Below are positions 36,171 to 55,197 of a DNA stretch of 64,000 nucleotides, piece after piece (positions within the stretch are counted from its first letter, which is position 1; the number at the start of each line of letters is the position of its first letter). The notes beneath the pieces were generated by a model. That model was not told the origin of the DNA and did no database searches. It worked only from the letters and a program-made list of their open reading frames with translations. The stretch is from a virus: positions 62,001-126,000 of IMG/VR virus record IMGVR_UViG_3300044701_003953; one strand, written 5' to 3'. Made by a program: the position numbers and the translations under genes.

Positions 36171-36203
36171 AGGCAATCGGGAAAAAAAGAAGAGAATTAA
36201 ACC

Positions 36204-37784
36204 ATGGATATATTCAAGACTAACGGAATCAAACTGACAAGTATCGCCGACGGAACGATTGATAGTCAAGCGTCTCCTTTGAGCTTGCCAGCAAGAAATG
36301 TATCCGGGTATGGTAAAATACTAAACGAAAACCTAGTCAGGTTACTAGAAAATTTTGCAGACATTACGCCTCCTACCAATGGGTTGCTAGGACAATTATG
36401 GTTCGACGTCGACGATAATCAACTATATGTCAATACTGACCGCGGCTATCAACCACTGACTGTATCTTATAAAACATCGTCGGAGCCAGAAAATCCTGCT
36501 ATCGGAGACATCTGGTGGGATTCGGGAAAAAAACAATTAAAAGTGTTTGATGGTAACAAATGGATGGTGATTGGCCCCGATTACGAAAGTAGTTGGGGAG
36601 AGACTGGTTTATTCTCAAACATCGTTCGCGACGAGTCGGGCATAGATCATTTGATCACACGATTCAAACTTGGCGGCCAAGACCGGTTGATCATTAACAC
36701 TGATCCTGAGTTCGTTCCTTTAGAGCCCATCTCCGGATTCCCAACGATCAAGCCTGGTATCACTGTATCAAATCGCGTACCAAATTTTCTTTATAACTCC
36801 ACAGTCGAAAATAGTAATAGACTTGGGAATATTCCGGCATCGACTTATCTACGAAAAGATCAAGATTCCTTCATCGATGGAAAGTTGACATCTACGACCG
36901 TAGCCATTGGCGTCGACGGCCCTGCTGTTTTTTCTATAGTCGGCGATGACAAGGACCTAGTCATAGCAAATGAATCACTGGGTTCTTCTATCAATTTTGA
37001 TCTCTTTGTCGACGGAGATAAAACCACAGTTCTGTCATTGGATTCCTCGGGACAAGTGATATTGTCAGCTGACCCATCGAATCCTCAGTCTGCAACAAGA
37101 AAAAGTTATGTTGACGGAAAGTTCGACGAAAATAAGAATTACATCGACAGTAAGTTTAATGCCAGTGGATTACTGCCCATCGAAACCGGTGGTACAGCAG
37201 CGAACACCATCGAGGGAGCCCGAGCGAATCTTCGTGTTCCTTCAGTCAACGGAATAGGAGCTACTGGCCGATGGGACATAGATATCACCGGATCAGCTGA
37301 TGATGCGAAGAATCTCAATGGATTTGTTGAATCAACAAATCCTGTGCCCGACACTATAGCACGTAGGGACAGCTCAGGGGATCTAAAAGCCACTGAATTT
37401 ATCGGGGTAGCGACTAGTGCTCGTTATGCCGACTTAGCTGAAAAATATCTGACAGACAAAGTATACGAGTATGGAACAGTTGTCATGGTCGGAGGGGAAA
37501 AAGAAGTGACATCGTGTATTCCGGGTTCGAGAGCCATTGGTGCGATATCGGAATTTCCGGCCTACAAGATGAATAGTGAACTGACACACGGACAGTATGT
37601 GGCCCTCAAAGGGCGGTTAAAAATTAAAGTCGTAGGACCAGCGAAAAAAGGCGATATGCTAGTAGCCGATGATCACGGTGCTGCAAAATCTGTGCAAAAT
37701 AATGATGTTTTTGGGATTTTTGCTGTAGTCCTAGAAAACAACGAGGACCCTGGTACTAAATTAGTGGAGTGCTTGATACTCTAG
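36204..37784 (+). CDS. Tail fibre paralogue 2
   Basis: A 526-residue protein. Its N-terminus (SLPARNVSGYGKILNENLVR; LLGQLWFDVDDNQLYVNTD; IWWDSGKKQLKVFDGNKWMV) and C-terminus (ATSARYADLAEKYLTDKVYE; LTHGQYVALKGRLKIKVVGP) parallel those of the preceding and following genes. There is no collagen-like repeat in between. The C-terminal domain differs most among the three copies (EYGTVVMVGGEKEVTSCIPG). It starts 33 bases after the first fibre gene with a purine-rich GAAGAG before the ATG. It is probably an alternative or auxiliary short fibre; receptor unknown. Confidence 0.8.
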   Translation: MDIFKTNGIKLTSIADGTIDSQASPLSLPARNVSGYGKILNENLVRLLENFADITPPTNGLLGQLWFDVDDNQLYVNTDRGYQPLTVSYKTSSEPENPAIGDIWWDSGKKQLKVFDGNKWMVIGPDYESSWGETGLFSNIVRDESGIDHLITRFKLGGQDRLIINTDPEFVPLEPISGFPTIKPGITVSNRVPNFLYNSTVENSNRLGNIPASTYLRKDQDSFIDGKLTSTTVAIGVDGPAVFSIVGDDKDLVIANESLGSSINFDLFVDGDKTTVLSLDSSGQVILSADPSNPQSATRKSYVDGKFDENKNYIDSKFNASGLLPIETGGTAANTIEGARANLRVPSVNGIGATGRWDIDITGSADDAKNLNGFVESTNPVPDTIARRDSSGDLKATEFIGVATSARYADLAEKYLTDKVYEYGTVVMVGGEKEVTSCIPGSRAIGAISEFPAYKMNSELTHGQYVALKGRLKIKVVGPAKKGDMLVADDHGAAKSVQNNDVFGIFAVVLENNEDPGTKLVECLIL

Positions 37785-37800
37785 TCAATTTAAAAGCCAA

Positions 37801-37806
37801 TATAAT
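37801..37806 (+). promoter_or_regulatory. Putative -10 box TATAAT
   Basis: A perfect TATAAT lies 10 bases before the late motif at 37811, in the 60-base gap between fibre genes. The same pair (TATAAT followed by GATAAATA) occurs in front of the gp48-like gene. No clear -35 box is visible. Confidence 0.3.
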
Positions 37807-37810
37807 ACGA

Positions 37811-37818
37811 GATAAATA
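37811..37818 (+). promoter_or_regulatory. T4-type late promoter motif GATAAATA
   Basis: Lies in the intergenic gap 26 bases before the third fibre gene's ATG. Identical to 8448-8455. Its intergenic position makes it one of the best late promoter candidates in the window. Confidence 0.65.
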
Positions 37819-37844
37819 AACACAATATCGGAGATTTGTAGAAA

Positions 37845-39386
37845 ATGCCCTACTCGGTTACCAAAACAAACGGAACTGCCATTACAGTTGAGGATGGTAG
37901 TACTAATACATCCAGCACCAGTCTCACGCTGATAGGTAAAAACTATCCGGGATATGGTGTATTTTTAAACCAAAACTTCGTGCGTCTGCTGGAAAATTTC
38001 AGCAACAGCGCCAGCCCCGACACAGTCACAGGTAGTCCTGCAGTACAGGGACAACTGTGGTGGGATAGCAATAACAAATTGCTCAAAGTTTACGAAGGCA
38101 CAGCATGGAAAGTGATTTCCAGCTCGATGAGTTCAGAATTTGAACCCGATGGTGCGGTTGTTGGAGATCTATGGTGGGATACCCGCAACAGTCAACTTAA
38201 AGTCTACCCAGGTGGCCCCACTGGAACACCTTGGGTAACCATCGGTCCCGCATTTACTACAGCCACAGGTCAGACTGGTGCGCTGGCGGACATTATCGCT
38301 GACAATAGTCAGTCGCAAACAGTCCACTCGGTTATCAAATTTTACGTAGACAACGATCTAGTATCAATATTGAGCCAGGATCCTGAGTTTACTCCTGCTA
38401 CCACAGATCTTCCCGGCTTCCCTGCTATCAAACCTGGCTTCAACCTCGCAACAAACATCGCCAACCTGAAATACAATGGAACTGCCACTTCTGCAGATAC
38501 ACTAGCTGGTGGAAGCATACAAGCTGGCGACTTGGCGAGATTGAGTGTCACAAACACTTTTACAAGACAACAAGAAATCAGAAACGATGCTGGTTTGGTG
38601 ATCGGTAATAACAAATTGCAGTTATTGGTCTCTGGCACCAATGGCGTCATCACAACTAACGATGCCAGCTTTGGACTAGCGATTGGCACCACTGGTAACG
38701 TGGGGCAGATCACACTGAGAAATAACGGTAATATCACTTTAGGACTGACTGGCGCCATCGTTGAAGTAGCACAAGATCCCAGCACCAGCCGCGGCATCGC
38801 AACCAAAGGTTATGTTGATGGTTTAATCGCCGGAACACAAGCCGGACAAGTTGCACTACTAAAAAGAGACGGTAGTGTGACTCTAACAGGTGCATTAAGA
38901 CCTGATACTAATGCCGGAACAGATTTAGGAACATCTAGTCTTAGATTTAACAACGTATACGCCAATACTTTTACAGGAACGTCATCTCGTGCCTTATATG
39001 CTGACTTAGCTGAAAGATTCGAAGCAGATTCATCATATCAGCCAGGCACTGTGGTTGAGCTTGGCGGTACTGCCGAAATCACTAAAGTTGGGCAGGAACT
39101 AAGCGAATCTGTGTTTGGCGTGATAAGTACAAGAGCAGCTTATCTCATGAATGCGGGCGCGGGCGAAGATGCTACACATCCTCCGGTTGCTATCAGTGGT
39201 CGAGTACCCGTGCGTGTAATCGGAAAAGTCCGCAAAGGTGATCGTTTAGTTTCGGCAGGAAATGGCTTAGCGAGATCAGCATCGAGAGATGAAATGACTC
39301 CTTGGAATGTTATCGGCCGTGCTCTACAAAATAAAGAAACAACCGGCGAAGGCACAGTTGAAGCCATCGTCAAATTGAATTCGTAA
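37845..39386 (+). CDS. Tail fibre paralogue 3
   Basis: A 513-residue protein. N-terminal segments LIGKNYPGYGVFLNQNFVRL and VQGQLWWDSNNKLLKVYEG match the other two fibres. The C-terminal ~130 residues ([40 protein letters not shown]) are nearly the same as those of the first fibre, much closer than to the second. The middle is a Thr/Gly/Asn-rich shaft (TGAIVEVAQDPSTSRGIATK). It has its own late promoter motif in the gap before it, so it may be expressed at a different level from the first two. Confidence 0.82.
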   Translation: MPYSVTKTNGTAITVEDGSTNTSSTSLTLIGKNYPGYGVFLNQNFVRLLENFSNSASPDTVTGSPAVQGQLWWDSNNKLLKVYEGTAWKVISSSMSSEFEPDGAVVGDLWWDTRNSQLKVYPGGPTGTPWVTIGPAFTTATGQTGALADIIADNSQSQTVHSVIKFYVDNDLVSILSQDPEFTPATTDLPGFPAIKPGFNLATNIANLKYNGTATSADTLAGGSIQAGDLARLSVTNTFTRQQEIRNDAGLVIGNNKLQLLVSGTNGVITTNDASFGLAIGTTGNVGQITLRNNGNITLGLTGAIVEVAQDPSTSRGIATKGYVDGLIAGTQAGQVALLKRDGSVTLTGALRPDTNAGTDLGTSSLRFNNVYANTFTGTSSRALYADLAERFEADSSYQPGTVVELGGTAEITKVGQELSESVFGVISTRAAYLMNAGAGEDATHPPVAISGRVPVRVIGKVRKGDRLVSAGNGLARSASRDEMTPWNVIGRALQNKETTGEGTVEAIVKLNS

Positions 39387-39400
39387 GGGAACATACAAAA

Positions 39401-40396
39401 ATGACATACTCGTCCGGCGGACTTATACAAGCATTAGATTACAATACCTTTGTACAGGGTGGCGCTTCAGTAGATCACTCAACAGCAAATATCAACACCT
39501 TGTGGGGAGTTGGTTCAGGAGATAAAGGGTATGGTCAGAGCACAACTTTGTCTACAGTCACAGGTGGCAATGATCAAGTCACTGCTACACAATGGGCCAC
39601 ATTAATCTCTAGATTAAATTCTATGCTCACACACCAGAGTGGCGGCGGATCCGGCATCACCGCTCCTACAGCTGGTACTACAATCGCATATCTTTCAGCT
39701 CTCGCTGGAAAAATCACCGATGCTAGTAACAATCGTTTATTAGCTAGTGCCAATGGCACAGACGTTACAAGTCAAGGTTCTTCGACTAGCACTTGGAACA
39801 CTTCCACTCCTACTACACATAGTTTCAGCCGTACTATCACTTTCAACTCGGCCGATAAAGCTAGATACTTCTTCAACGCTGGCGGCAAGATCATCATCAA
39901 CTTTGCCGTGACCAACACACTGGGTAACAGCAAAGGCACCGACTGGAAAACATTCTTTGAAAGCAAAGTGGCCAGCATCGTTGTAGGTTCGACCACAAAC
40001 GGTCGCACAGGTACAGGCGGTGGTTCCACAACATTAGCTACTGCTTACGGTTATTGGAACGTGGGAACAAGTAATCGTACCATCCTGGCACTGACTTCAA
40101 ACTCGGGCACAGCAGACTACGGTGGCAACACCTTGTCAGTGGGACTCAAGACCAATGGTGTACAGGGCTCAAATGGCGACGTTGGAACAGCACTGACTTT
40201 CCAAATCGATCTAAACGACGTGGCCGCTGATACCAATACTGCGCCTACCAATCCAAACCAGCCAGGTGGATCGGCACCAGTACAAGGTAACTTCGAAGAC
40301 CAGATCAACATTGGTATCACTACCACTTTCACGATCCGTCCTCCATCAACTGCCAACCTCGCAGATACATGGGGTTCGTCTTATACTTACAGTTAA
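39401..40396 (+). CDS. Virion structural/fibre-associated protein
   Basis: A 331-residue protein rich in Thr, Ser, Gly and Asn, starting with MTYSSGGLIQALDYNTFVQG, a start that recurs in marine phage structural proteins. HSFSRTITFNSADKARYFFN and GGKIIINFAVTNTLGNSKGT suggest a repeated beta-sandwich. No cysteines, signal peptide or membrane segment. It begins 14 bases after the third fibre gene (AAGGGA before the ATG) and is the last gene before the terminator. It is probably a fibre tip, adhesin or surface protein; no specific match is recognised. Confidence 0.72.
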   Translation: MTYSSGGLIQALDYNTFVQGGASVDHSTANINTLWGVGSGDKGYGQSTTLSTVTGGNDQVTATQWATLISRLNSMLTHQSGGGSGITAPTAGTTIAYLSALAGKITDASNNRLLASANGTDVTSQGSSTSTWNTSTPTTHSFSRTITFNSADKARYFFNAGGKIIINFAVTNTLGNSKGTDWKTFFESKVASIVVGSTTNGRTGTGGGSTTLATAYGYWNVGTSNRTILALTSNSGTADYGGNTLSVGLKTNGVQGSNGDVGTALTFQIDLNDVAADTNTAPTNPNQPGGSAPVQGNFEDQINIGITTTFTIRPPSTANLADTWGSSYTYS

Positions 40397-42404: not shown

Positions 42405-42726
42405 AAACCTTCCCGAACTTGTCGAGTCGGAAGTGGAATATCGTCTTTATTACAACGAGGACGGTACTGTTTTATCAATGAGCTCGGGTGATTTTCCTGT
42501 TGAAGGAAAATATATAAAGATCGATAAAGAGATTTACGATCGGCCCAATTATTCGACAATGCGGGTGATCAATGGGAAACTAACCATACTTGAAAATGTT
42601 TCACATCATCGCAATGATCTATATCGCGGAGGCGATAGATTCCTCGTAGTCAAAGGACATGCCAACATATTAGTAGATGACACATACCAAGGAGAAACAG
42701 AAACATATGGCTTCAAGAATCATTGA
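42367..42726 (+). CDS. Small hypothetical protein
   Basis: A 119-residue acidic protein from the ATG at 42367; an in-frame TTG at 42358, 4 bases after GGAA, is a possible earlier start. Segments are EYRLYYNEDGTVLSMSSGDF, DRPNYSTMRVINGKLTILEN and a beta-rich FLVVKGHANILVDDTYQGE. I do not recognise the family. It overlaps the preceding glycosyltransferase-like gene by 38 bases and the next by 20, which supports it being translated. Confidence 0.6.
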   Translation: MNDELPALLEVFKNLPELVESEVEYRLYYNEDGTVLSMSSGDFPVEGKYIKIDKEIYDRPNYSTMRVINGKLTILENVSHHRNDLYRGGDRFLVVKGHANILVDDTYQGETETYGFKNH

Positions 42727-43639
42727 TGTCGCAGACATAGATTGCATCTATCTCAGTTACGACGAGCCACAGAAGGAAGCGTTCTGGATCAAGATACAGA
42801 ACATGGTACCCTGGGCCAAGCGAGTGGATGGCGTCAAAGGATCCGACGCCGCACACAAGGCCGCCGCTGCCAAGTCTGACACAGAATTTTTCGTGCTCAT
42901 TGACGGAGACAACTTGCCCGACGGTGACTTCTTTAATCTACAACTGGCAGTAGGCGAAGACGAAGCTGATGCTGCCTGGCGCTGGAAAGCCCGCAATCAC
43001 ATCAACGGACTCATGTATGGCAACGGTGGCATGAGTGTGTGGAGCAAGCGGTTTGTGGAAGACATGAAAACCCACGAAGCATCGGATGGCAGCGATCGCA
43101 CAGCAGTGGAGTTCTGTTTCGAACCCAAATACTTTGCCATGCACAACTGCTACTCGACCACTTACCCCAATGGTAGCCCTTACCAAGCATGGCGTGCTGG
43201 ATTCCGTGAAGGCGTCAAGATGTGTCTGGACAAAGGCCGCAAGCCCACGCTACAAGAGTTTGATGACTCAGTGCAACGGCGCAACTTTGACAACCTCTGC
43301 ATCTGGCAGACCGTGGGTCGTGATGTAGAAAACGGTATATGGGCCATCGCAGGAGCACGCCTAGGTACCACTATGACAATGATACATGATTGGGATCACA
43401 GGAACGTACAAGACTTTGATGAGCTTAAAAAGATCTGGGAAGATTGCGTCAAAGATCTAGATCCCGAAGAATTAGCTGCCAAAGAAGGGCAACTGTTACG
43501 CAGTCGACTAGGTATGCCCATCGCAGAGTTTGACGCAGAGCAAAGCAAATTTTTTAAACATCATTACTCTACGGGGCACAAGAACCTAGACATGATGACC
43601 AAAGAGATCGATGTGATCCGTCGTATCGAAGGATGGTGA
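42707..43639 (+). CDS. Glycosyltransferase-like protein of marine phages
   Basis: A 310-residue protein from ATG 42707 (MASRIIDVADIDCIYLSYDE), preferred over 42677 because AAGGAG precedes it and the family starts near this point. IYLSYDEPQKEAFWIKIQN, WAKRVDGVKGSDAAHKAAAA and FVLIDGDNLPDGDF (a DxD motif, ~residue 65) are the hallmarks of a cyanophage glycosyltransferase-like family. GLMYGNGGMSVWSKRFVEDM follows. The stop shares one base with the next start (TGATG). The 809-residue repeat protein at 57354-59783 carries related elements. Confidence 0.75.
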   Translation: MASRIIDVADIDCIYLSYDEPQKEAFWIKIQNMVPWAKRVDGVKGSDAAHKAAAAKSDTEFFVLIDGDNLPDGDFFNLQLAVGEDEADAAWRWKARNHINGLMYGNGGMSVWSKRFVEDMKTHEASDGSDRTAVEFCFEPKYFAMHNCYSTTYPNGSPYQAWRAGFREGVKMCLDKGRKPTLQEFDDSVQRRNFDNLCIWQTVGRDVENGIWAIAGARLGTTMTMIHDWDHRNVQDFDELKKIWEDCVKDLDPEELAAKEGQLLRSRLGMPIAEFDAEQSKFFKHHYSTGHKNLDMMTKEIDVIRRIEGW

Positions 43640-45045
43640 TGAATAAAGGCGACGAAGCAGTAGGCAACAAAAGCAAGTTCATGGCTTCAGCCGAGTGGAT
43701 GAAAGAACACCTCGGCGAAGGGTTCTGCTTGGCCAAATGGAAGCAGGTCAGCCTACACTTGCCCACAGGACTCAACAACTCCTGCTACCATCCTCCCTTG
43801 CACCACATCGATCCTGCGCCACTCAAAGATAATCCCGGCGCATTGCACAACACCGAGCACAAGAAACAACAGCGTGTTATCATGCTGAAAAACGAGCGTC
43901 CTGGTGAATGCCAATACTGCTGGAACATCGAAGACACCGGCAATCTCAGCGACAGACATTATCGCAGTGGCGAACCCTGGGCAGCCGAGGACTATGAAGC
44001 CATCCGTGCCTCCGCAGGCACCGAAGACTGGATTCCCAGTTATGTAGAAGTCAACTTCAATCATGCTTGTAATCTGGCCTGCTCGTATTGTAGCCCACAG
44101 TTTTCGTCGACCTGGCAATCGGAAGTAGACAAGTGGGGAGCCTGGCCTACGTCAACTCCACACAACGCACCCGAGCACTTCCAAGGTCGCAATCGTCCCA
44201 TCCCGCACAGCCAAGAGAATCCCTATGTGGATGCTTTCTGGGAATGGTGGCCACAACTGTATCCCAAGTTGAAACATTTCCGCATGACTGGCGGTGAACC
44301 ACTCATGGATCGAAATACCTACAAGGTGTTTGACTATGTGTTAGCCCTGCCCAACCCTGAGCTACATCTCAATGTCACTTCTAACTTCTCTGTGGAACCT
44401 AAACTGTTTGAGAAATATCTCGACTATGTGAAACGCTTGTGTAACACACAGATCGAACACTTCATGCAATATGTGAGCCTAGACACCGGCGAACCTCAGC
44501 ATGCCGAATACATCAGGCATGGGCTCAACTTCCGTCGCATGTGGGATTATGTACATCGCTATCTCGACGAGATCCCGTATCGCAACAGCCTCACATTCAT
44601 TATCACCATGAACAATCTGTCGGTCCTGGGCATACAACGACAACTGGAGTGGATCCTGGATCTGCGGCGCATGTATTCCAAGACCTATCAGCGTGTGTGG
44701 TTTGATACTCCATTGTTGCGCCAGCCTAAATGGCAGAGCCTACAGATACTTCCGCCAGTGTATGCTGACCGACTCGAGCGTGTGGCAGACTGGATGGAAC
44801 TAAACTTAGAAACGCCCGAGGATCCCTTCCACGGTTTCAAAGACTATGAAGTGCAACGCATCCGGCGCGACATCGCGTGGATGCGTGAAGGACAGAAACT
44901 GGATCACGACTACATAGTTGGACAACGTGCCGACTTCTATCGTTTCTTCAATGAACACGACAAGCGTCGTGGCACTGATTTTGAAAGGACTTTCCCTGAG
45001 ATGCGGGAATTTTGGCAGGAGTGCAGATACCATGCCCAACGATAA
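43639..45045 (+). CDS. Radical SAM protein, SCxHPP class (member 1)
   Basis: A 468-residue radical SAM enzyme; an ATG two codons earlier (43633) is also possible. The N-terminal block FCLAKWKQVSLHLPTG, NNSCYHPPLHH, NPGALHNTEHKK and ECQYCWNIEDTG carries paired Cys/His sites that could hold an auxiliary iron-sulfur cluster. The core CNLACSYC is at about 144-151 and TGGEPLMD at about 217. The C-terminal FYRFFNEHDKRRGTDFERTF ends in PEM. The protein at 46110-47462 is a close paralogue. Substrate unknown. Confidence 0.9.
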   Translation: MNKGDEAVGNKSKFMASAEWMKEHLGEGFCLAKWKQVSLHLPTGLNNSCYHPPLHHIDPAPLKDNPGALHNTEHKKQQRVIMLKNERPGECQYCWNIEDTGNLSDRHYRSGEPWAAEDYEAIRASAGTEDWIPSYVEVNFNHACNLACSYCSPQFSSTWQSEVDKWGAWPTSTPHNAPEHFQGRNRPIPHSQENPYVDAFWEWWPQLYPKLKHFRMTGGEPLMDRNTYKVFDYVLALPNPELHLNVTSNFSVEPKLFEKYLDYVKRLCNTQIEHFMQYVSLDTGEPQHAEYIRHGLNFRRMWDYVHRYLDEIPYRNSLTFIITMNNLSVLGIQRQLEWILDLRRMYSKTYQRVWFDTPLLRQPKWQSLQILPPVYADRLERVADWMELNLETPEDPFHGFKDYEVQRIRRDIAWMREGQKLDHDYIVGQRADFYRFFNEHDKRRGTDFERTFPEMREFWQECRYHAQR

Positions 45046-46117
45046 GTTTTGTGTTCGTCCTTTCATGCACAGTCTTGTTGACACCGAAGGGCGATTCAAA
45101 CCTTGTTGCCGTAGTCAAGTTGACACTGGATTTAATATCAAGTCACATACTGTTGAAGAATGGTGGAACAGCGAATATCTCAATGATTTCCGTGACAGGA
45201 TCAAAAGAAACGAATACAGCAAAGAATGTGACAGGTGCTATCGACAGGAACAGCAAGGATCAAAGAGCTTCCGCGAATACAGCAACGAACGGTGGCCAGA
45301 TGTCAAAACTACTAGAGAAAGACCAATCGATTGGGAGATACAGTTATCAAATCTTTGCAATTTGAAATGTTTGATGTGTAACCCACAATCCAGTAGCCAG
45401 TTCTTAGTAGAAGAAAATAAGCTATTTGGAAAAAAGTGGGATCAAACCAAATACGATTGGGATGCCAAAGACAACAGCAAGATACTCGAGATAATGCAAC
45501 AAAGCGAGAGTTTCATCCTACGAGGCGGAGAACCGTTTATGTTGCCGTGGGTAAAGGACATCATCTCATCGTTAGCAGATCGAAAAGAAATAATGATAGC
45601 TACCAACGGCACTCGGTTCGATCAAAGTTGGCTTGACGTCCTTTCGGGGCACGACATCAAGATTTGTCTGAGCCTTGACGGGCACGGAAAACTCAATCAT
45701 TACATACGCTATCCTAGTAAATGGAATGACATACTGGATAACATCAAATTGATGCGGAAGATCCCAGGTGTGAATCTTTTCGTGAACACCGTAGTCCAAA
45801 ATCTCAACGTGTTACACATCGACCGATTGTTAGACTGGACCAAGGGCGAAGAGTTATTTGTGCAATTCGATATACTAACTAAACCTAAATATCTAGAACC
45901 GTCGTGCTTACCTGCCGAGTTGGCTAAACTCGCACAAGACCGTCTGGGCAGAGTTGATCACCAATCTCAGAATGGGCTCGAAGGGATAATCAATACTTTA
46001 GATAATGCCACAGATGAGTATTGGGAAGAATTCGTGGAAACTATAACTATCAGAGATAGACATCGTGGCGTAGATATAGTAAACTATATACCCGAGATGG
46101 AGCCATACTTTGCCTAG
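45032..46117 (+). CDS. Radical SAM protein, PCC-type twitch class
   Basis: A 361-residue enzyme starting at ATG 45032 (MPNDKFCVRPFMHSLVDTEG); a longer frame from 44918 only runs through the previous gene, and AGGAG precedes 45032. The N-terminal block FCVRPF, RFKPCC and CDRCYRQEQQGSKSFR is followed by the core CNLKCLMC (~109-116) and RGGEPFML (~164). CLSLDGHGKLNHYIRYP and the tail RHRGVDIVNYIPEMEPYFA match its siblings. It overlaps its upstream neighbour by 14 bases. Confidence 0.9.
   Translation: MPNDKFCVRPFMHSLVDTEGRFKPCCRSQVDTGFNIKSHTVEEWWNSEYLNDFRDRIKRNEYSKECDRCYRQEQQGSKSFREYSNERWPDVKTTRERPIDWEIQLSNLCNLKCLMCNPQSSSQFLVEENKLFGKKWDQTKYDWDAKDNSKILEIMQQSESFILRGGEPFMLPWVKDIISSLADRKEIMIATNGTRFDQSWLDVLSGHDIKICLSLDGHGKLNHYIRYPSKWNDILDNIKLMRKIPGVNLFVNTVVQNLNVLHIDRLLDWTKGEELFVQFDILTKPKYLEPSCLPAELAKLAQDRLGRVDHQSQNGLEGIINTLDNATDEYWEEFVETITIRDRHRGVDIVNYIPEMEPYFA
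46099..46102 (+). promoter_or_regulatory. Ribosome site GGAG deciding a TTG start
   Basis: GGAG lies 7 bases before TTG 46110. The next in-frame ATG is far inside the conserved N-terminal block, so TTG is the most likely start. Confidence 0.6.
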
Positions 46118-47462
46118 ACTACATAATGAAACTGACCTAGAATTCCGGAAACGTGTGCTCGATTCTAAGAGTGCTAGTTTCTGTGGAGCCAAATGGTACA
46201 ACGCTACCATATGGTTAGGCTCCGGCATGACCACATCCTGTCATCACCCTCCTGCGCATTTCGTGCCAGTGGAGGCCATCCAACGTAACCCCAAGGCGCT
46301 ACATAACAGCGACGAAAAGAAAAACGACCGCGCCATGATGCAACGTGGCGAACGTCCACCCGGTTGTGAGTATTGCTGGAAGATCGAAGACATGGGTCGT
46401 GATGCTGTTTCAGACCGTGTCTATAAAAGCGTGATCTACACCGACGAGGAACTCAATGAAGCTTATCTATTACCCACCGCTGAGGACGCAAATCTACGCA
46501 CTCTCGAAATCAGTTTCGATCGTACTTGCCAATTGGCTTGTAGCTACTGTAATCCTGCTTTCTCTTCTACATGGGTTAAGGACATTAAAACCCGAGGGCC
46601 TTATATCGAGTTGGTTAGTGATGGTAGGAATCACTTCACTCATGATCACGCTAGTGCTCAACTTTATCGATACGGTGAAGTCAATCCGTATGTTGAGGCA
46701 TTTTTCCGCTGGTGGGAAACCGACCTACATAAGACGCTTAGAGAGTTACGGATCACCGGAGGAGAACCACTCATGTCCGGCTACACCTGGCAACTCATCG
46801 ACTGGTTCAAACAAAACCGCGGCAAGTCAAACACACGCCTAGCCATCAACTCCAACTTGGCTATGCCGTCGGATCGTATACAAGAACTCCTAGATGCTTG
46901 CGAGGGTATCGAACTGGATATCTATACTTCCAACGAAGCACTACATTCGCAGGCCGAATACATCAGAGACGGGCTCCAATGGCAACAATGGCAAACCAAC
47001 ATGCGTTTGTTGGCCTCCAGTGGTAGGCTACGGGGCTTACACAACATGTGTACTATCAACGCATTGTGTCTCGAATCATTGCCTGAGTTCTTGGATTTCT
47101 TGGTAGAGATGAAACGAGAGTTTGGCAGAGATTTCCCCAACTTCACGCTAAACATCCTGCGTTTTCCGTCGTTCCAAAGCCCTTTGGTGTTGCCTGATGA
47201 CATACGTGAACACCACAAGCAGAGACTAGTTGAGTGGATGGTCAAGCACAAAGGCCACAGCTATCTACATCAGCATGAGATAAACCATGTGCTAAGATTG
47301 ATAGATTATCTAGATGTAGTCAAGACTCCGCACCGCGAGACTTTTGAGCGTCCAGCCCTACACAACGACTTCCGTAAATTCTACGAACAATACGATCAGC
47401 GTAGGGGTAAAAATTTCCCCGAAACATTTCCTGGCCTAGCCGACTGGTATTCCACACTATGA
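46110..47462 (+). CDS. Radical SAM protein, SCxHPP class (member 2)
   Basis: A 450-residue enzyme read from TTG 46110. FCGAKWYNATIWLGSG, TSCHHPPAHF, NPKALHNSDEKK and CEYCWKIEDMG parallel the protein at 43639-45045 block by block. Core CQLACSYC is at ~140-147 and TGGEPLMS at ~217. IYTSNEALHSQAEYIRDG and the tail FYEQYDQRRGKNFPETFPGL also match. It overlaps the neighbour before by 8 bases and the next by an ATGA. Two SCxHPP enzymes interleaved with PCC-type ones suggests ordered steps or partner pairs. Confidence 0.9.
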   Translation: MPRLHNETDLEFRKRVLDSKSASFCGAKWYNATIWLGSGMTTSCHHPPAHFVPVEAIQRNPKALHNSDEKKNDRAMMQRGERPPGCEYCWKIEDMGRDAVSDRVYKSVIYTDEELNEAYLLPTAEDANLRTLEISFDRTCQLACSYCNPAFSSTWVKDIKTRGPYIELVSDGRNHFTHDHASAQLYRYGEVNPYVEAFFRWWETDLHKTLRELRITGGEPLMSGYTWQLIDWFKQNRGKSNTRLAINSNLAMPSDRIQELLDACEGIELDIYTSNEALHSQAEYIRDGLQWQQWQTNMRLLASSGRLRGLHNMCTINALCLESLPEFLDFLVEMKREFGRDFPNFTLNILRFPSFQSPLVLPDDIREHHKQRLVEWMVKHKGHSYLHQHEINHVLRLIDYLDVVKTPHRETFERPALHNDFRKFYEQYDQRRGKNFPETFPGLADWYSTL

Positions 47463-48790
47463 GTGATACAAAAGATTTCTACAACAAGGGCTACGACTAC
47501 AATAGTCGGGCACCTTATTTCGTCGAGCGCAAAGACTTGACACCCGAGCAGTGGCGCAAGCTCACGGAGAGCGATACCTTCTGTATGTTACCTTGGATGC
47601 ACATGCACGCCTTCCCAGATGGTCGTGCTTATCCCTGCTGTCTCAGCGAATACTTCCACCCCGTAGGCGATCTGCGCAAACACACCATGGAAGAAGTATG
47701 GAACCAAGAAAAGTATCGCACCATGCGTCAGAACATGCTCACGGATAAGCCATGTAAAGAATGTACTAAGTGCTATGAGCAAGAGAAGGCTGGATTCTTT
47801 TCTATGCGCAATGATGCCAACAGGAACTACGGGCATCATATCTCAGACATACATAAGACACAACCAGATGGAACACACCCCGACTTCAAGATCCGTTATT
47901 GGGACGTACGATTCAGCAATCTCTGTAACATGAGATGTCGTAGCTGTGGCCCTATCTTTTCGTCGAACTGGTTCAATGACCATGTCAAGATGTATGGCGT
48001 AGTGCCCGATGTACTCAAACGACCCATGGCCAGGGTAGAATATACTACCGGCGACGAGGATGGCATGTTGGCACAGATGGAGCCACATATCCCTTATCTC
48101 GAACAAGTCTACTTCGCAGGTGGCGAACCGCTGATCATGAAAGAGCACTACTACATGCTGGAGAAGTTGATCGAAGCCGGCAAGACTGATGTGCGACTGA
48201 TCTACAACACCAATTTCTCAGAACTGCGCTACAAAGACAAACATGTGTTTGAGTTCTGGAAACACTTCAAAACAGTGAATGTGGGCGCCAGCCTAGATGC
48301 TTCGGGCGCCCGGGCCGAGCTCATGCGCAAAGGCACTGAGTGGACGCAGACCGTGGACAACCGCCGCAGGATGATGGAGGAAGTGCCGCATGTGGACTTC
48401 TATGTCAGCGCCACGGTATCCTCGATGAATGTGCTACATGTGTTAGACTTCCATCGCGAATGGAGCGAACTGGGCCTGATCCGCCCCAAGGACTTCAATG
48501 TCAATATCTGCCAAAGTCCTGAATGGTACAGGATCGACATCTTCCCCGAAGCGTTCAAGCGAGAAGTCATCGAACCTGCTTACCGTAGACACATCGAGTG
48601 GCTTGATCCGCAGGACACGCTACGCCGTGCTACCACTGGATTCGAAAGCGCCATCAACTTCATGATGAGCACAGACAACAGCCATCTCTTGCCACGCTGG
48701 AGAGAAGAGACCGCCAAGTTGGATCGCGTGAGGGACGAAGACTTTTGGAAGACCTTCACAGAATTGGAGACACTACGTGACTCTGCCTAA
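47459..48790 (+). CDS. Radical SAM protein, PCC-type twitch class
   Basis: A 443-residue enzyme. An N-terminal extension of about 40 residues precedes FCMLPWMHMHAFPDGRAYPC and CKECTKCYEQEKAGFFSMR. The core CNMRCRSC is at ~156-163, AGGEPLIM at ~220, and IYNTNFSELRY follows. Its start overlaps the previous stop (ATGA). Codons here end mostly in C or G, more so than in the structural block. The C-terminal tail (LDRVRDEDFWKTFTELETL) keeps the D..R..F arrangement but lacks the PE of its siblings. Confidence 0.9.
   Translation: MSDTKDFYNKGYDYNSRAPYFVERKDLTPEQWRKLTESDTFCMLPWMHMHAFPDGRAYPCCLSEYFHPVGDLRKHTMEEVWNQEKYRTMRQNMLTDKPCKECTKCYEQEKAGFFSMRNDANRNYGHHISDIHKTQPDGTHPDFKIRYWDVRFSNLCNMRCRSCGPIFSSNWFNDHVKMYGVVPDVLKRPMARVEYTTGDEDGMLAQMEPHIPYLEQVYFAGGEPLIMKEHYYMLEKLIEAGKTDVRLIYNTNFSELRYKDKHVFEFWKHFKTVNVGASLDASGARAELMRKGTEWTQTVDNRRRMMEEVPHVDFYVSATVSSMNVLHVLDFHREWSELGLIRPKDFNVNICQSPEWYRIDIFPEAFKREVIEPAYRRHIEWLDPQDTLRRATTGFESAINFMMSTDNSHLLPRWREETAKLDRVRDEDFWKTFTELETLRDSA
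48766..48769 (+). promoter_or_regulatory. Ribosome site GGAG supporting a GTG start
   Basis: GGAG lies 7 bases before GTG 48777 inside the end of the preceding gene. It selects GTG, which gives MTLPKTICMLPW, the same opening as its siblings. Confidence 0.6.
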
Positions 48791-49991
48791 GACCATCTGT
48801 ATGCTACCATGGATGAGCATCGAGACTTCGCCAATGGGTACAGCTCGGCCTTGCTGTCTTGCTGACGAAGAGATCACTGATGCCAATGGTGTCAAATATG
48901 ATCTCAATGTCAGCACACTGCGCGAAGTCTATGACAGCGAATACATGCAGGAACTGAGACGTCAATTCCGTCGAGGTGAAAAACCCAAGACATGTAATCG
49001 TTGCTGGGAAGAGGAAGCCGCTGGAAGGACCAGCAAGCGTATACACAGCCGTGTACGACTCAAAGAACTCTATGCCCAAGTGGACTGGGAAAATGATCGA
49101 CCTGACCAACTCTGGTTCGTAGATCTCAAACTAGGTAACATTTGTAATCTCAAATGCCGTATCTGCGGATCCTGGAGTTCCAGCAAGTGGGCTGAAGAAG
49201 AGATGAACTACTTGCCCAAGACCGTGGACAAGAAAACACACATCGCTTACACCTGGCTCAAGCAAGGACAATGGCCCCGCAAGACCGAGACCTTCTGGGA
49301 TGACCTGCGCGGACTCTTGCCCAACATTCGCTACTTTGAATTCACTGGTGGCGAACCCTGGTTGATCCAAGAGCACATCGACCTGCTCAAGTTCGCTGTG
49401 GAGACCGGCGACAGTCATCACATCGACATACACTACAACACCAATGCCACACAATGGCCCGACGATCTGGTAGAGATCTGGAAAGACTTCGGACGGGTGG
49501 ACATCGCCTTTAGCATCGACAATGTGGGAGAGCGTTTCGAGTTTGAGCGTTTCCCTGCCGACTGGAACAAAGCCAATGAGATCGTGGATGCCGTTCATGC
49601 GTTACAAAAGACGCACACCAACATCACTACCCAACTGTGCTTCACGCTCAACATACAGAATGTTTACTACCTCGATGAGTTGCTGGCCTGGGCAGACACC
49701 AAAGGCTTTGACAACATCTACTTCAACATGCTACATAGTCCCAGCCGCATGAGCATACAGTCCATGACGCCAGTGGCGCAAGAGTTGGTAGTTGGTAAAC
49801 TACGCAACACCGATTGGCGCACTGAATACCAACGCGAAGTTGATAATGTCATCAACTTCATTGAGAACGGTGCAGGTAGCGACGGGCGTGAGTTTTGCCG
49901 TCTCATGAAGCAGACTGACGCTTACCGTAAGCAAGACTTCGCCACCACACACCCTGAGATAGCAAAGGCCATGGGATATGAACAAACCTGA
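48777..49991 (+). CDS. Radical SAM protein, PCC-type twitch class (closest sibling of 4896-6497)
   Basis: A 404-residue enzyme from GTG 48777. CMLPWMSIETSPMGTARPCC and CNRCWEEEAAGRTSKR form the N-terminal block, CNLKCRIC at ~123-130 the core, and TGGEPWLI at ~190 the SAM site. IDIHYNTNATQWPDDLVEIW and SIDNVGERFEFERFP are very similar to the enzyme lying between gp47 and gp46, which indicates duplication between distant operons. The tail QTDAYRKQDFATTHPEIAKA matches too. It overlaps both neighbours by 14 bases. Confidence 0.92.
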   Translation: MTLPKTICMLPWMSIETSPMGTARPCCLADEEITDANGVKYDLNVSTLREVYDSEYMQELRRQFRRGEKPKTCNRCWEEEAAGRTSKRIHSRVRLKELYAQVDWENDRPDQLWFVDLKLGNICNLKCRICGSWSSSKWAEEEMNYLPKTVDKKTHIAYTWLKQGQWPRKTETFWDDLRGLLPNIRYFEFTGGEPWLIQEHIDLLKFAVETGDSHHIDIHYNTNATQWPDDLVEIWKDFGRVDIAFSIDNVGERFEFERFPADWNKANEIVDAVHALQKTHTNITTQLCFTLNIQNVYYLDELLAWADTKGFDNIYFNMLHSPSRMSIQSMTPVAQELVVGKLRNTDWRTEYQREVDNVINFIENGAGSDGREFCRLMKQTDAYRKQDFATTHPEIAKAMGYEQT

Positions 49992-51282
49992 ACATCGTCC
50001 CGCGACACTTTGTATGGCACCGTGGACTCACACATATCTGAGTCCACAGACTGAGCGCCGGATGTGCTGTGCTAGTCGTGAACCTGCACAGAACTTCCAG
50101 CAGTATATTGATACAGCTGCTGGTACAGGAAAATATATTCCCATTACCTTGGACGAGCATTGGAACGGCGAGCACATGAAGAGTGTGAGACGCCGAATGA
50201 TGACCGGCGAGACTTTGCCCGAATGCGATGTGTGTAACAGCAAGCTCTTGAACACAGACGTTTACCGTAGTTATTTTAACCATCTTTTCGGACATAAGTA
50301 TAATAGCATATGGGACTCTACTGACGAGACCGGAAATACTACTATGCAGCCAGTGAGTTGGGATTACAGGTTTTCCAACTTGTGTAACTTCAAATGCAGA
50401 ACCTGTGGAGACATGTTAAGCAGTGCTTGGGAGTCTGAGCAACGCCAACACAACATGATCGACTGGACCAATCCCAAGAATCAGTGGATGGTCCCTGAAA
50501 TCAAAAAGCAAATTGAAGGTTTTCAAAATGAACAGGTAGAGGCCGAGTTTTCACAGGCCGTTGAGGAGCACCGAGTCGAAGAAGTCTACTGGGTTGGCGG
50601 CGAGCCACTCATGTACGAACAGCATTGGCGATACATGAAACGTATCGTTGACTTGGGAGATGGACAAAATGTTTACGCTAGATACAACACAAATCTTAGT
50701 AGGATTGATTATAGAGGTATTAATCTTTATCGGGATATTCTTAGTAGGTTACGGGATTGGCAAATCTGTGCAAGCATCGACGGATCGGGCCGAATTGGTG
50801 AATATATTCGAACAGGTCTCGATTTTAGTCGGTGGCTTGAGAACTTCAAACAAGGAGTTGAAATCAGTACTCATAAACGCCAGATGCGTATTGACTTCAC
50901 TCTTACACTCCCGGGTCTCTTCGAAGTTCGACAGATGACCCAGCTCGGGCAGGAACTGGGTGTTGACACATTAGCCAAAGTCATATTCAGTTTCTCGCCC
51001 GACATCATACTCAGTCCATTGGCCTTGCCAAGGGAGTTACTAGAACCCTGGTTAGACGAACTCATACCCGATACACATGGCGCCATGCAGGATATTTTGG
51101 TACAACTCAAAGCACGACCTACGTTCCAAGAACAGTGGCCCGATCAGTGGCAAGCGGGTCTTGCGAAAGGCAAGGCTCGTGTGTTAAAATTAGAACAGAT
51201 CAGAAATGACGATTACACCATGGACGACATATTAAGCCAGCGTCCAGAGGTACATAAATGGTGGAGAAACATCGATGCTTGA
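49978..51282 (+). CDS. Radical SAM protein, PCC-type twitch class
   Basis: A 434-residue enzyme. CMAPWTHTYLSPQTERRMCC and CDVCNSKLLNTDVYRSY form the N-terminal block. CNFKCRTC is at ~136-143, VGGEPLMY at ~206, and ARYNTNLSRIDYRG follows. The tail is LKLEQIRNDDYTMDDILSQR with PEVHKWW. Around codons 230-262 the third codon positions become T-rich, unlike the rest of the gene, and a second frame with a membrane segment is open there (50669-50938). It overlaps the next gene by 8 bases. Confidence 0.92.
   Translation: MNKPEHRPATLCMAPWTHTYLSPQTERRMCCASREPAQNFQQYIDTAAGTGKYIPITLDEHWNGEHMKSVRRRMMTGETLPECDVCNSKLLNTDVYRSYFNHLFGHKYNSIWDSTDETGNTTMQPVSWDYRFSNLCNFKCRTCGDMLSSAWESEQRQHNMIDWTNPKNQWMVPEIKKQIEGFQNEQVEAEFSQAVEEHRVEEVYWVGGEPLMYEQHWRYMKRIVDLGDGQNVYARYNTNLSRIDYRGINLYRDILSRLRDWQICASIDGSGRIGEYIRTGLDFSRWLENFKQGVEISTHKRQMRIDFTLTLPGLFEVRQMTQLGQELGVDTLAKVIFSFSPDIILSPLALPRELLEPWLDELIPDTHGAMQDILVQLKARPTFQEQWPDQWQAGLAKGKARVLKLEQIRNDDYTMDDILSQRPEVHKWWRNIDA
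50669..50938 (+). CDS. Possible overprinted small membrane protein inside a radical SAM gene
   Basis: An 89-residue frame (+1 relative to the host gene) from ATG 50669, with GGGAG 9 bases upstream. It encodes MFTLDTTQILVGLIIEVLIF followed by IGIFLVGYGIGKSV, one clear transmembrane helix, then an amphipathic stretch (DRAELVNIFEQVSILVGGL) and a basic C-terminus. The host gene's wobble positions are unusually T-rich exactly over the membrane segment, which would be expected if the second frame were under selection. It could still be chance; conservation of this frame has not been tested. Confidence 0.3.
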   Translation: MFTLDTTQILVGLIIEVLIFIGIFLVGYGIGKSVQASTDRAELVNIFEQVSILVGGLRTSNKELKSVLINARCVLTSLLHSRVSSKFDR

Positions 51283-51463: not shown

Positions 51464-52531
51464 ATGAAAAAAGTCAAGATAGTACTGAGAGATCCTCTCA
51501 ACAAGCAGGATCAGATCGATTACGACATCGAAGTCGAAGATCATGAAATGGCCGTGCGCTGGCACGATGCTTTATGTGATCTGCTTCGTAACGACAATTA
51601 CTTAGAAAAGAATTTTTGTTTTTTGGGCTTTCCTAACACAGCTAGGAATCTCGATTTCCTTTGCCGCGAGCTAGACTGGGCCAAGACGAAGATAAATTCT
51701 TTCTTCGACGATTATCGTATAGAAGAAGAATACCGTCCTGATACGCTGAGACATGGCCTCGATCCCAATCAGGATCTGATGAACTTGTTACACAATCATT
51801 TTGAAGTGTTACAAGGAACAGTATGGGGACTCAGCGAATACTACAAGAGAGCCGACTACGAAACCAAGTTTGCTATCCGCCAACTCAACAACATCTGCCA
51901 CGAAGCAGAAAGCCTAATGTTGAGCCAACGCAAACAAGTAGAAGCACCCGAGTGGGTGCGTCCTAGCCAGATAACTACGTTCTTAAACGCACCTCGTTTC
52001 GAGTATCCTCGAGAGTATAAACGTACATTCAACGAAACACGTTACGACCGTACCTTTGGTACAGTATATCAGCATTGGACACAGATCGGCAAGACCTTGT
52101 ACGAAGTCTATATCGACGAGAACGGTGCCGATATCGATCAAGCCACCTGCGAGGCCATCACGCACCTGCGATACTATTCGGGAGAATTTGATATCGAATG
52201 GGCACGTGATGTCACACACGGTGGCGAGTATCCGTGGCATACCAAACGTATGACTGGATTCCGCGAGTGGCTAGTCCGCAACGGGTTTGATCTCGACGAT
52301 GTGGAATACAACTACGGGTATCACTCAGTGGGGCAAGTCGATCTGCGTGGTGGCTTTGGCACGGATGACTATCAGACGATATGGAATACATTAGGACAGC
52401 ATCTCGACATAGTAAAGATCGAAACCGCTGGATTTTCGTCTACTTACGATTACTGCTGGACCGACGAAGATTATTATCAACAACAGATCGATAGATTGAA
52501 ACCTGGTTATGATTATAGTAGCAGGCGGTGA
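51464..52531 (+). CDS. Conserved hypothetical phage protein
   Basis: A 355-residue soluble protein with no recognised domain. It begins MKKVKIVLRDPLNKQDQIDY, then a helical middle (HNHFEVLQGTVWGLSEYYKR; KFAIRQLNNICHEAESLML), and a conserved-looking end (FREWLVRNGFDLDDVEYNYG; GQVDLRGGFGTDDYQTIWNT). Aromatic and acidic residues dominate. There is no cysteine cluster or P-loop. It follows a small membrane protein without a gap and overlaps the first SGNH-like gene by 23 bases. Its place suggests a role in the same modification pathway, which is inference. Confidence 0.65.
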   Translation: MKKVKIVLRDPLNKQDQIDYDIEVEDHEMAVRWHDALCDLLRNDNYLEKNFCFLGFPNTARNLDFLCRELDWAKTKINSFFDDYRIEEEYRPDTLRHGLDPNQDLMNLLHNHFEVLQGTVWGLSEYYKRADYETKFAIRQLNNICHEAESLMLSQRKQVEAPEWVRPSQITTFLNAPRFEYPREYKRTFNETRYDRTFGTVYQHWTQIGKTLYEVYIDENGADIDQATCEAITHLRYYSGEFDIEWARDVTHGGEYPWHTKRMTGFREWLVRNGFDLDDVEYNYGYHSVGQVDLRGGFGTDDYQTIWNTLGQHLDIVKIETAGFSSTYDYCWTDEDYYQQQIDRLKPGYDYSSRR

Positions 52532-53151: not shown

Positions 53152-53702
53152 TATTAGTAAATGGCGATAGTTTCACTGCCGGAGAAGAAAGCACTGTAGC
53201 ATGGCCGGACCTTGTGCCCGATACCGTGAACATAGCGGTGTCTGGAGCTGGCAACGATCATATCGTCACTAGCACGATCGTCCACGTCGAAACGCACGAT
53301 GACGTCGATCATGCTATAATAGCATGGACCACACCACATAGGATAACGATCAGTGGAAAACATCTTACTCCCACTAGCCAGAGGAAATACGGAAAGTTAG
53401 TAGACGAGGTATTCCGTGACTGGGACGAAGATTGGGCCTGGAGGAAATTCCGAGCCGAAGTGGCCGCATTACATGGTTATCTCGAACACAAAGGTATCCC
53501 ACATGTGTTTGTGAGCACATTTGGGATACCCTCTAATACTATACCTGACTGCTTGTACTGGCTGGGGTGGGGAACAGAAGGCATGGTGGAATGGATGGGC
53601 GATTGCCCCAAAGGCCCAGGTGGGCATCCTTTAGAACTTGGACATCAAAGAATAGCAGGAAAAATCAATGAACATATTAGGAATATCGGCTGGATTTCAT
53701 GA
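53148..53702 (+). CDS. SGNH-hydrolase-like protein 2
   Basis: A 184-residue protein. MILVNGDSFTAGEESTVAWP carries the GDS nucleophile block, VSGAGNDHIVTSTIV gives a G-x-N-D block, and GGHPLELGHQRIAGKI at ~161-175 supplies the His. This set is more complete than in its neighbour, including the G-N-D that is less clear there. It is probably an esterase/acyl-transfer enzyme acting on a glycan. The next gene begins 35 bases before its stop. Confidence 0.75.
   Translation: MILVNGDSFTAGEESTVAWPDLVPDTVNIAVSGAGNDHIVTSTIVHVETHDDVDHAIIAWTTPHRITISGKHLTPTSQRKYGKLVDEVFRDWDEDWAWRKFRAEVAALHGYLEHKGIPHVFVSTFGIPSNTIPDCLYWLGWGTEGMVEWMGDCPKGPGGHPLELGHQRIAGKINEHIRNIGWIS
53310..53326. repeat. Perfect 17-bp palindrome CATGCTATAATAGCATG
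   Basis: Two 8-base arms around a central A, inside the second SGNH-like gene. It contains TGCTATAATAG, the same 11 bases found in the promoter of this operon at 40456. It may be an internal promoter for the carbamoyltransferase cassette or an operator, or chance within codons for HAIIAW. Confidence 0.4.
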
Positions 53703-55197
53703 CGCTGCCGCGAGTCTAGTAGACAAAGACGGCAATATCATGTTCGCTGGCCACAGTGAACGTTACAGCAAGAGCAAGAACGATGCCAACATCTGTCCTG
53801 GGCTGCTGACTGATATTCCTGTCAAAGTGGATCATATCGCTTATTACGAAAAGCCATGGCTGAAACAAACACGTCAATTATATTCAGGACAAGGTATCGA
53901 GTGGGGTAAACTGACCACCGATGGTATATTGGTAGATCAACTCGGGGACTGGATCTATCAACAAAACCCCGGGTTTAATCCTCATCGAGAAGTGTATTGG
54001 GATTGTGGTTTGCCTGAGATCAGTAGCTACCGCCATCACCTTAGTCATGCTGCCGCAGGATTCCAGACCAGCCCCTATCAAGAAGCCACGGTGGTAGTGT
54101 GTGACGCTATCGGCGAATGGGACACAGCTTCGATCTATCATGCTTGGTATGACGATAAAGGTCGTGCCCGATACAAGAAACTATGGGGCCAACGCTATCC
54201 GCATAGCCTAGGCATGTTCTACTCGGCGTTCACTAAGCGCCTAGGATTGAAGCCAATGGACGAAGAATACATACTCATGGGCATGGCTGGTTGGGGCAAA
54301 AGTACCTGGTTCAATCGTATCTTTGATGAACAAGTGGACGACATCGCGGAATTAACATTCAAAAACAATCTACATCTAGGCCTAGACGACAATTACCTGG
54401 ATGCGGCCCGCGACGAAGACCTAGCAGCCAGCGTACAAGAGATCACTGAGTGGGCGGTGTGCAGACTCATGGAACGTGCTCGTATGTTAGGTAGTAGCGA
54501 CAATCTCGTTTACATGGGCGGTGTGGCGCTCAACTGCTTGGCTAATCGTTTGCTAGGCAAATACTATTCTAACATCTGGATCATGCCAAACCCAGGTGAT
54601 GCTGGCAGCAGCCTTGGTGCCGCTGCTCTTGCCTATGGCAAAAAATTAAACTGGCAAGACGCTTATCTAGGACATGTGATACCAGGACCTTATCCAGTAA
54701 AAGACTTGCTAGATGAGTTACTAACTAATAAAATAGCGGGTGTGGCATCAGGTGCCGCAGAATTTGGTCCACGTGCTTTAGGTAATCGTAGCCTACTAGC
54801 AGACCCGCGTGGAGAAGATATAAAGGATCGTGTCAATGAAATTAAGCGACGTCAAAAATTTAGACCCTTTGCCCCAGTCATACTGGCCGAGATGGTCGGT
54901 GACTACTTTGATATGCCACCTGGCTGGACTGACAGCGATTATATGCAAGTCGTCGCTAAGTGTCGCCGTCCTGATCTTTTTCCTGCTATATGTCATATTG
55001 ATGGCACCAGCAGAGTACAGACAGTTCCGAAAGATTCGAGATCGGGAATCCGTCAACTCTTAGAGCAATGGTATGTGATGACAGGATGTCCTATGTTGTT
55101 GAATACCAGCCTCAACATCCGTGGAGAGCCAATGGTCAACGATCGCGACGACGCCGATCGTTTTGAAAATTTATATAAAGTGAGAGTTTGTTCATGA
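53668..55197 (+). CDS. Carbamoyltransferase, NodU/CmcH/TobZ family
   Basis: A 509-residue enzyme. The N-terminal kinase-like fold opens with ILGISAGFHDAAASLVDKDG, and the metal/substrate motif SSYRHHLSHAAAGF is near 112-125. The nucleotide-binding part has YMGGVALNCLANRLLGKYY. The YrdC-like C-terminal lobe has FGPRALGNRSLLADPRGED, RRQKFRPFAPVILAE and MLLNTSLNIRGEPMVNDR. The enzyme makes carbamoyl-adenylate from carbamoyl phosphate and ATP and transfers the carbamoyl group to a hydroxyl, commonly of a sugar. AGGA precedes the ATG. Homologues occur in cyanophages. The acceptor is unknown. Confidence 0.92.
   Translation: MNILGISAGFHDAAASLVDKDGNIMFAGHSERYSKSKNDANICPGLLTDIPVKVDHIAYYEKPWLKQTRQLYSGQGIEWGKLTTDGILVDQLGDWIYQQNPGFNPHREVYWDCGLPEISSYRHHLSHAAAGFQTSPYQEATVVVCDAIGEWDTASIYHAWYDDKGRARYKKLWGQRYPHSLGMFYSAFTKRLGLKPMDEEYILMGMAGWGKSTWFNRIFDEQVDDIAELTFKNNLHLGLDDNYLDAARDEDLAASVQEITEWAVCRLMERARMLGSSDNLVYMGGVALNCLANRLLGKYYSNIWIMPNPGDAGSSLGAAALAYGKKLNWQDAYLGHVIPGPYPVKDLLDELLTNKIAGVASGAAEFGPRALGNRSLLADPRGEDIKDRVNEIKRRQKFRPFAPVILAEMVGDYFDMPPGWTDSDYMQVVAKCRRPDLFPAICHIDGTSRVQTVPKDSRSGIRQLLEQWYVMTGCPMLLNTSLNIRGEPMVNDRDDADRFENLYKVRVCS

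Follow-up and report, generated by a model that had tools for sequence, protein, structure and literature searches.

Six genes for radical S-adenosylmethionine (SAM) enzymes, here designated A-F, lie in tandem in a 64,000-nucleotide stretch of viral DNA (the window), which comprises bases 62001-126000 of the 207,520-base IMG/VR record IMGVR_UViG_3300044701_003953. The source genome is that of a large metagenome-derived tailed phage. The array and the sub-branch of proteins with an N-terminal SCxHPP motif, to which A and C belong, are real and little-studied and fall inside a named subfamily. The six paralogues may well be sugar-tailoring radical SAM enzymes of a phage glycan-decoration module, with a four-cysteine cluster and, in the SCxHPP members, an adjacent His/Tyr pair; we hold this reading with moderate confidence.

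The array occupies positions 43,633-51,282 on the + strand, and its genes overlap or abut. The N-terminal motifs from A to F are SCYHPP, PCC, SCHHPP, PCC, PCC and MCC. A preliminary description of this DNA, made from the sequence alone, gave the order as SCxHPP, PCC, SCxHPP, PCC, PCC, PCC and the span as 43639-47462. The order is correct for A-E, whereas F carries MCC and not PCC; the span contains only A, B and C, and the array ends at 51282. All six proteins match NF033640 (N_Twi_rSAM, the NCBIfam “twitch domain-containing radical SAM protein”, cut-off 170 bits) over nearly their full length, with 282-396 bits. The SCxHPP-class members are A (43633..45045, likely start 43639; 305.7 bits) and C (46110..47462; 299.5 bits). 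Genes B (45032..46117; 281.9 bits), D (47459..48790; 395.9 bits) and E (48777..49991; 338.1 bits) are of the PCC type, B being an optional insertion between A and C. Gene F (49978..51282; 287.3 bits) is of the CC type, and its block is strongly conserved. The Pfam family Radical_SAM (PF04055) is also matched by all six proteins, by three of them slightly below the gathering score, and the radical SAM motif CX3CX2C (C144, C148 and C151 of A; 44068..44091, +) is invariant across A-F.

In addition to SCxHPP, A carries ALHN and CQYCWNIED, and C carries ALHN and CEYCWKIED. These motifs, generalized as SCxHPP, ALHN and CxYCWxIED in the preliminary description, are genuine and not due to chance: C30, G44, C49, H51, P52, H70, N71, C91, Y93, C94 and W95 (numbering of A) are invariant in 69 aligned SCxHPP proteins. 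The preliminary description also named no characterized family with this N-terminal block. The whole protein, the block included, matches NF033640, as do all 69 sampled SCxHPP proteins, so that a named twitch subfamily exists; what stands is that no characterized member of it was found in the library searched. We also found no literature on the function of the NF033640 subfamily. SCxHPP proteins share with the subfamily an N-terminal twitch followed by a radical SAM barrel. They differ from the rest of it in lacking the second Cys after ligand 2 and in having the His/Tyr pair and the ALHN block.

Ten genes of the complete record score above the NF033640 cut-off, namely A-F and four others, two of which are in the window on the - strand (846-2153 and 4896-6497). 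The protein of 4896-6497 has an additional N-terminal region of about 130 amino acids ahead of its twitch block. A further radical SAM gene (2143-3114, -; PF04055) scores under the NF033640 cut-off and adjoins an AAA/SMC-like ATPase gene (3107-4882). When 50,697 cultured-phage records were searched by tblastn with A and D, the only matches were distant relatives in Vibrio phages and one single-cell marine virus fragment. An apparent insertion of about 400 bases in some A homologues (e.g., in locus L005) proved to be a tblastn match continuing into the next gene.

The SPASM motif is CX9-15GX4C-gap-CX2CX5CX3C-gap-C; twitch domains retain its first part, and the twitch of BtrN has four cysteine ligands (PMC6231123). 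Using the alignment, this published motif and covariation, we placed the twitch block of A at 43723..43956 (+). Its ligand positions are C30 (43726), C49 (43783), C91 (43909) and C94 (43918), with the motif glycine at G44 (43768); the counterparts in C are C25, C44, C86, C89 and G39. H51 of A (43789; H46 in C) is located two residues after ligand 2, and Y93 (43915; Y88 in C) lies inside CxYC. A and C do not have the seven-cysteine SPASM motif, only its first four ligand positions. Judged by its spacing, the CX9-15GX4C...CX2C twitch pattern of the BtrN type is present in A-E and nearly all of their homologues, while F deviates at the glycine (CMAPWTHTYLSPQTERRMCC). The twitch motif and CX3CX2C are both intact in every full-length A and C homologue examined (128/128 distinct homologues of A and 120/120 of C), in 116/116 of D and in 101/102 of E. 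Homologues of F keep the cysteines, and the glycine is absent in all but one of 103 sequences.

The preliminary description regarded the SCxHPP block as a variant cluster site with a histidine ligand. The invariance of H51 and H70 in the 69 phage proteins speaks for such a site, as does the finding that the Cys-to-His variant C268H of PqqE is still able to form the [4Fe-4S] AuxI cluster (PMC9012708). Nevertheless, none of the four cysteines of the known motif is missing. In PCC proteins the second Cys lies outside the ligand positions of the motif, and therefore its absence in SCxHPP proteins leaves no vacancy for a histidine. Moreover, H51 is replaced by Leu in bacterial homologues that keep the cysteines (see below), and by Arg in two viral homologues. 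We consider a histidine-ligated auxiliary cluster very improbable; the motif and the structural model of A point to a predicted coordination of the extra iron-sulphur site by an ordinary set of four cysteines.

The natural variants come from a scan of bacterial and archaeal genomes, one genome per species, which gave 54 loci, mostly on contigs titled Bdellovibrionales, Bacteriovoracaceae and kin. The His at ligand 2 + 2 is replaced by Leu in 16 bacterial SC-class proteins (15 distinct), all of which have the four cysteines. A tree built from 87 SC-class proteins shows Leu originating in two separate places; two long “CCLQ” proteins, L214 and L218, are outside this tree. The latter (L214 9902-14386, L218 9794-14626) consist of an N-terminal SC-class radical SAM domain and a long C-terminal region, 1,495-1,611 amino acids in all. 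Among the bacterial proteins, the four-cysteine motif and the radical SAM motif are intact in 56/56 of the His type and 15/15 of the Leu type.

Where the His is present, Tyr precedes the second Cys of CX2C in all 128 homologues of A, all 120 of C and 54 of the 56 bacterial proteins; the two remaining bacterial proteins have His where the others have Tyr. In Leu-type proteins the same position holds Ile, Ala, Ser, Val or Leu. An independent-pairs test of the association on the tree had three pairs only, with which significance is unreachable; the support for it comes from 128 + 120 + 54 + 15 proteins that agree completely but are not independent. This agreement suggests that His and Tyr act or pack together beside the cluster. 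Since loss of the His is accompanied by loss of the Tyr, we think a second-shell His/Tyr pair close to the cluster likelier than a His ligand.

The SCxHPP proteins are indeed a distinct sequence class, as had been proposed. The SCxHPP label changes three times on a FastTree phylogeny of 198 proteins, and at least one of these changes is a fragment without an N-terminus, which makes the SCxHPP proteins essentially one clade within NF033640, as far as the tree allows us to judge. A and C are each nested among bacterial sequences, in different sub-branches.

Viral contigs were collected by their similarity to A or C, and 107 distinct loci include A together with F. Of these, 84 have the core order A C D E F and the remainder show losses or duplications, and the genes are on one strand throughout. 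In 86/107 loci A and C are adjacent among the radical SAM genes, and in the other loci a further paralogue separates them, which in four of the 107 is an orthologue of B. The alternation of SCxHPP and PCC enzymes described for this DNA is thus confined to the present genome and a few relatives. The two SCxHPP genes accompany each other closely: C is present in all 68 loci that were retrieved with A and have long enough flanks, and A in 72/73 loci retrieved with C. The constancy of the order A C D E F across the 107 loci, together with the conserved flanks, suggests that the array may work as a coupled pathway.

The pairing of the two classes, which had also been proposed, holds as co-occurrence in phage loci but is not obligate, since in 15 of the 27 bacterial loci with flanks a single SC-class gene is the only member of the family. 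Contigs L172-L174, L178, L198, L219 and L220, which are titled as bacterial metagenome-assembled genomes (MAGs), were excluded from the bacterial locus counts. In L172, L173, L174, L178, L198 and L220 the tail-fibre, glycosyltransferase and radical SAM genes are arranged as in the phage loci, and these six probably come from phages and were binned into MAGs. One bacterial protein (L190) is a fusion of an SC-class enzyme with a radical SAM module of the CC type; in another locus a similar module is a separate gene close by. Flagellin genes adjoin SC-class genes in two Bdellovibrionota contigs (L177 11595-12416; L190 8668-9546 and 12663-13484); a search for literature on radical SAM enzymes with flagellin in Bdellovibrio found none.

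The AlphaFold2 model of A has a predicted local distance difference test score (pLDDT) of 93.9 and a predicted template modelling score of 0.91. C30 and C49 are connected in it through a beta-hairpin, and helices lead up to and surround C91/C94; the modelled topology is that expected of a twitch, as described for BtrN and SkfB. The best fold match of A in the PDB is the cytosylglucuronate decarboxylase BlsE (template modelling score, TM, 0.34; 14% identity), a radical SAM enzyme that acts on the sugar part of a nucleoside, although the TM is low. With BtrN, the twitch radical SAM dehydrogenase of butirosin, the array proteins have the four-cysteine twitch pattern in common, and its sugar-like substrate is the proposed analogy. 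The twitch of BtrN lies C-terminally, unlike the N-terminal twitch of the array proteins, and BtrN is not among the 50 best fold matches listed for A. The barrel and the auxiliary-cluster module are also common to the array proteins and the twitch/SPASM enzymes SkfB and SuiB, which mature ribosomally synthesized and post-translationally modified peptides and have a C-terminal auxiliary domain and an N-terminal RRE (PMC6231123). Among phage proteins, the “MoaA/nifB/pqqE family proteins” of KVP40 (Q6WHP4) and phi-pp2 (I6XCF1) share the fold of the array protein, with a TM to target of 0.74 and 0.66, respectively, but are shorter and only 15-17% identical to it.

Conservation of the flanking genes was counted over 160 loci. 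Upstream of the module are tail-fibre-like genes (33846..40396, +) with collagen repeats and a weak Peptidase_G2 match, preceded by a single open reading frame of 4,716 amino acids (18976-33126, +), located between them and the virion structural genes, which has a match to an FG-GAP repeat and a weak one to a carbohydrate-binding module. Two homologous genes (40754-41536 and 41529-42404, +), whose profiles cross-match, are present in 149-150 of the 160 loci; they possibly encode transferases, and no family match identifies them. The gene directly upstream of A (42677..43639, +, likely start 42710) encodes a GT-A-type glycosyltransferase-like protein with a near-invariant DGD and, like the two genes before it, is conserved in most loci. 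Its AlphaFold2 model (pLDDT 94.3) has its best Foldseek matches among GT-A enzymes (e.g., RmlT, HddC and WrtF) at a low TM of about 0.3, and weak GT2 Pfam matches occur in five of 58 family members. No relatives of this gene were found by tblastn in the cultured-phage records. Residues ~588-783 of an 809-residue protein (57354-59783, +) match the same GT-A-like family, giving a second copy of the domain in the module.

Downstream of F, a conserved uncharacterized gene (51464..52531, +; 126/160 loci) is followed by two more small genes and by a NodU/CmcH-type O-carbamoyltransferase gene (53668..55197, +; PF16861, PF02543, phrog_1601; 103/160 loci). At 55188-56032 (+) a kinase and a second open reading frame match different parts of PHROG 10255, as would be seen if a fused kinase gene had been divided in two. 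On the - strand, about 8 kb downstream of F, are genes for a DegT/DnrJ/EryC1/StrS sugar aminotransferase (59771-60943; PF01041, 2.7e-76) and an NAD-dependent epimerase/dehydratase (60828-61799; PF01370, 5.9e-44). Some of these neighbours recur in bacteria: a relative of the 42677-43639 gene is directly upstream of the SC-class gene in a Bacteriovoracaceae contig (L182), and a relative of the 51464-52531 gene adjoins the SC-class gene in a Bdellovibrionaceae contig (L186 8835-9746, -; E = 3.7e-12).

The glycan reading is based on the GT-A-type gene upstream of A together with the carbamoyltransferase, the DegT aminotransferase and the epimerase nearby, on the recurrence of the GT-A-like gene in Bacteriovoracaceae, and on the best fold match, BlsE, which acts on a sugar; BtrN is a precedent for a twitch enzyme with a sugar-like substrate (PMC9012708). 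Radical SAM cassettes are likewise reported from the host-recognition regions of pelagimyophages, in combination with tail fibres and glycosyltransferases (PMC7029224). The motifs and the model predict standard radical SAM chemistry with a four-cysteine auxiliary cluster. The His/Tyr pair would stand beside this cluster and not ligate it, and may tune redox or proton chemistry or contact the substrate. Successive radical steps (oxidation, epimerization, dehydration or decarboxylation) could then act on a sugar or sugar nucleotide, which, to judge from the genomic context, would be built and attached by the neighbouring glycosyltransferase-like, carbamoyltransferase, aminotransferase and epimerase proteins. 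The target of the decoration may be the tail-fibre proteins of the phage itself or the host surface glycan during infection. Several points weigh against this reading. Many characterized SPASM/twitch enzymes act on peptides. The whole-protein TM to BlsE is only 0.34, and the 98 neighbours of bacterial SC-class genes are mixed, with seven glycosyltransferase-2 matches, flagellins and unrelated genes. The aminotransferase and epimerase genes are on the opposite strand and are seen with the array in at most a handful of other loci among the flanks retrieved; given also their distance, they may be outside the module. Finally, the loci were picked by likeness to A or C, so that the conservation figures describe relatives and not all phages.

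The same neighbourhood could be explained if the enzymes were peptide or protein maturases that modify phage tail-fibre proteins by cross-links or by epimerized or oxidized residues. Such maturases (SuiB, SkfB, CteB) are among the top fold matches, and the array is always near tail-fibre-like genes, just downstream of them. The flagellin adjacent to the SC-class gene in Bdellovibrionota is an exported filament protein too, but this adjacency is seen in two loci only and was spotted after the fact. Unlike SkfB and SuiB, the array proteins have no match to the peptide-binding RRE domain in the Pfam scan. A limited search among the window genes tested found no conserved small precursor gene (a 62-residue open reading frame at 51275 is present in 3/160 loci), and the gene immediately before the array encodes a GT-A-type protein. 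We regard a maturase function as possible, if somewhat unlikely. It is quite improbable, in our opinion, that the genes encode metabolic or host-takeover enzymes unrelated to glycans (of cofactor, nucleotide or tRNA metabolism) that happen to lie in a variable region. Radical SAM genes of phages have been called auxiliary metabolic genes, and the T4-like genome TARA_ERS488813_N000010, a precedent for a T4-like phage rich in such genes, has 12 of them, tied to Fe-S metabolism; the section consulted does not discuss the SCxHPP class or the array order (PMC5332604). Bacterial SC-class genes, too, often stand alone beside unrelated genes. Yet the array keeps a fixed position between tail-fibre-like genes and the GT-A-like/carbamoyltransferase neighbourhood in more than 100 loci, and no NCBIfam equivalog for a cofactor or tRNA enzyme is matched above its cut-off.

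A bolder version of the glycan or virion-protein modification, which we think unlikely to hold as a whole, is that the five or six paralogues in fixed order run a multi-step radical pathway to an undescribed modified sugar or virion protein. SCxHPP would then be a mechanistic subclass in which His and Tyr couple proton and electron transfer next to the auxiliary cluster, a function shared with Bdellovibrionota.

The genome described here, that of a single phage, carries ten members of one radical SAM subfamily that is still poorly understood, and the fixed order of five of them in more than 80 related phages points to a virus-encoded radical pathway of an unusual kind. Being common to phage and bacteria, the GT-A-like partner gene offers a handle for finding the substrate, and the natural His/Tyr and Leu/non-Tyr variants offer a handle on second-shell residues at a twitch cluster.

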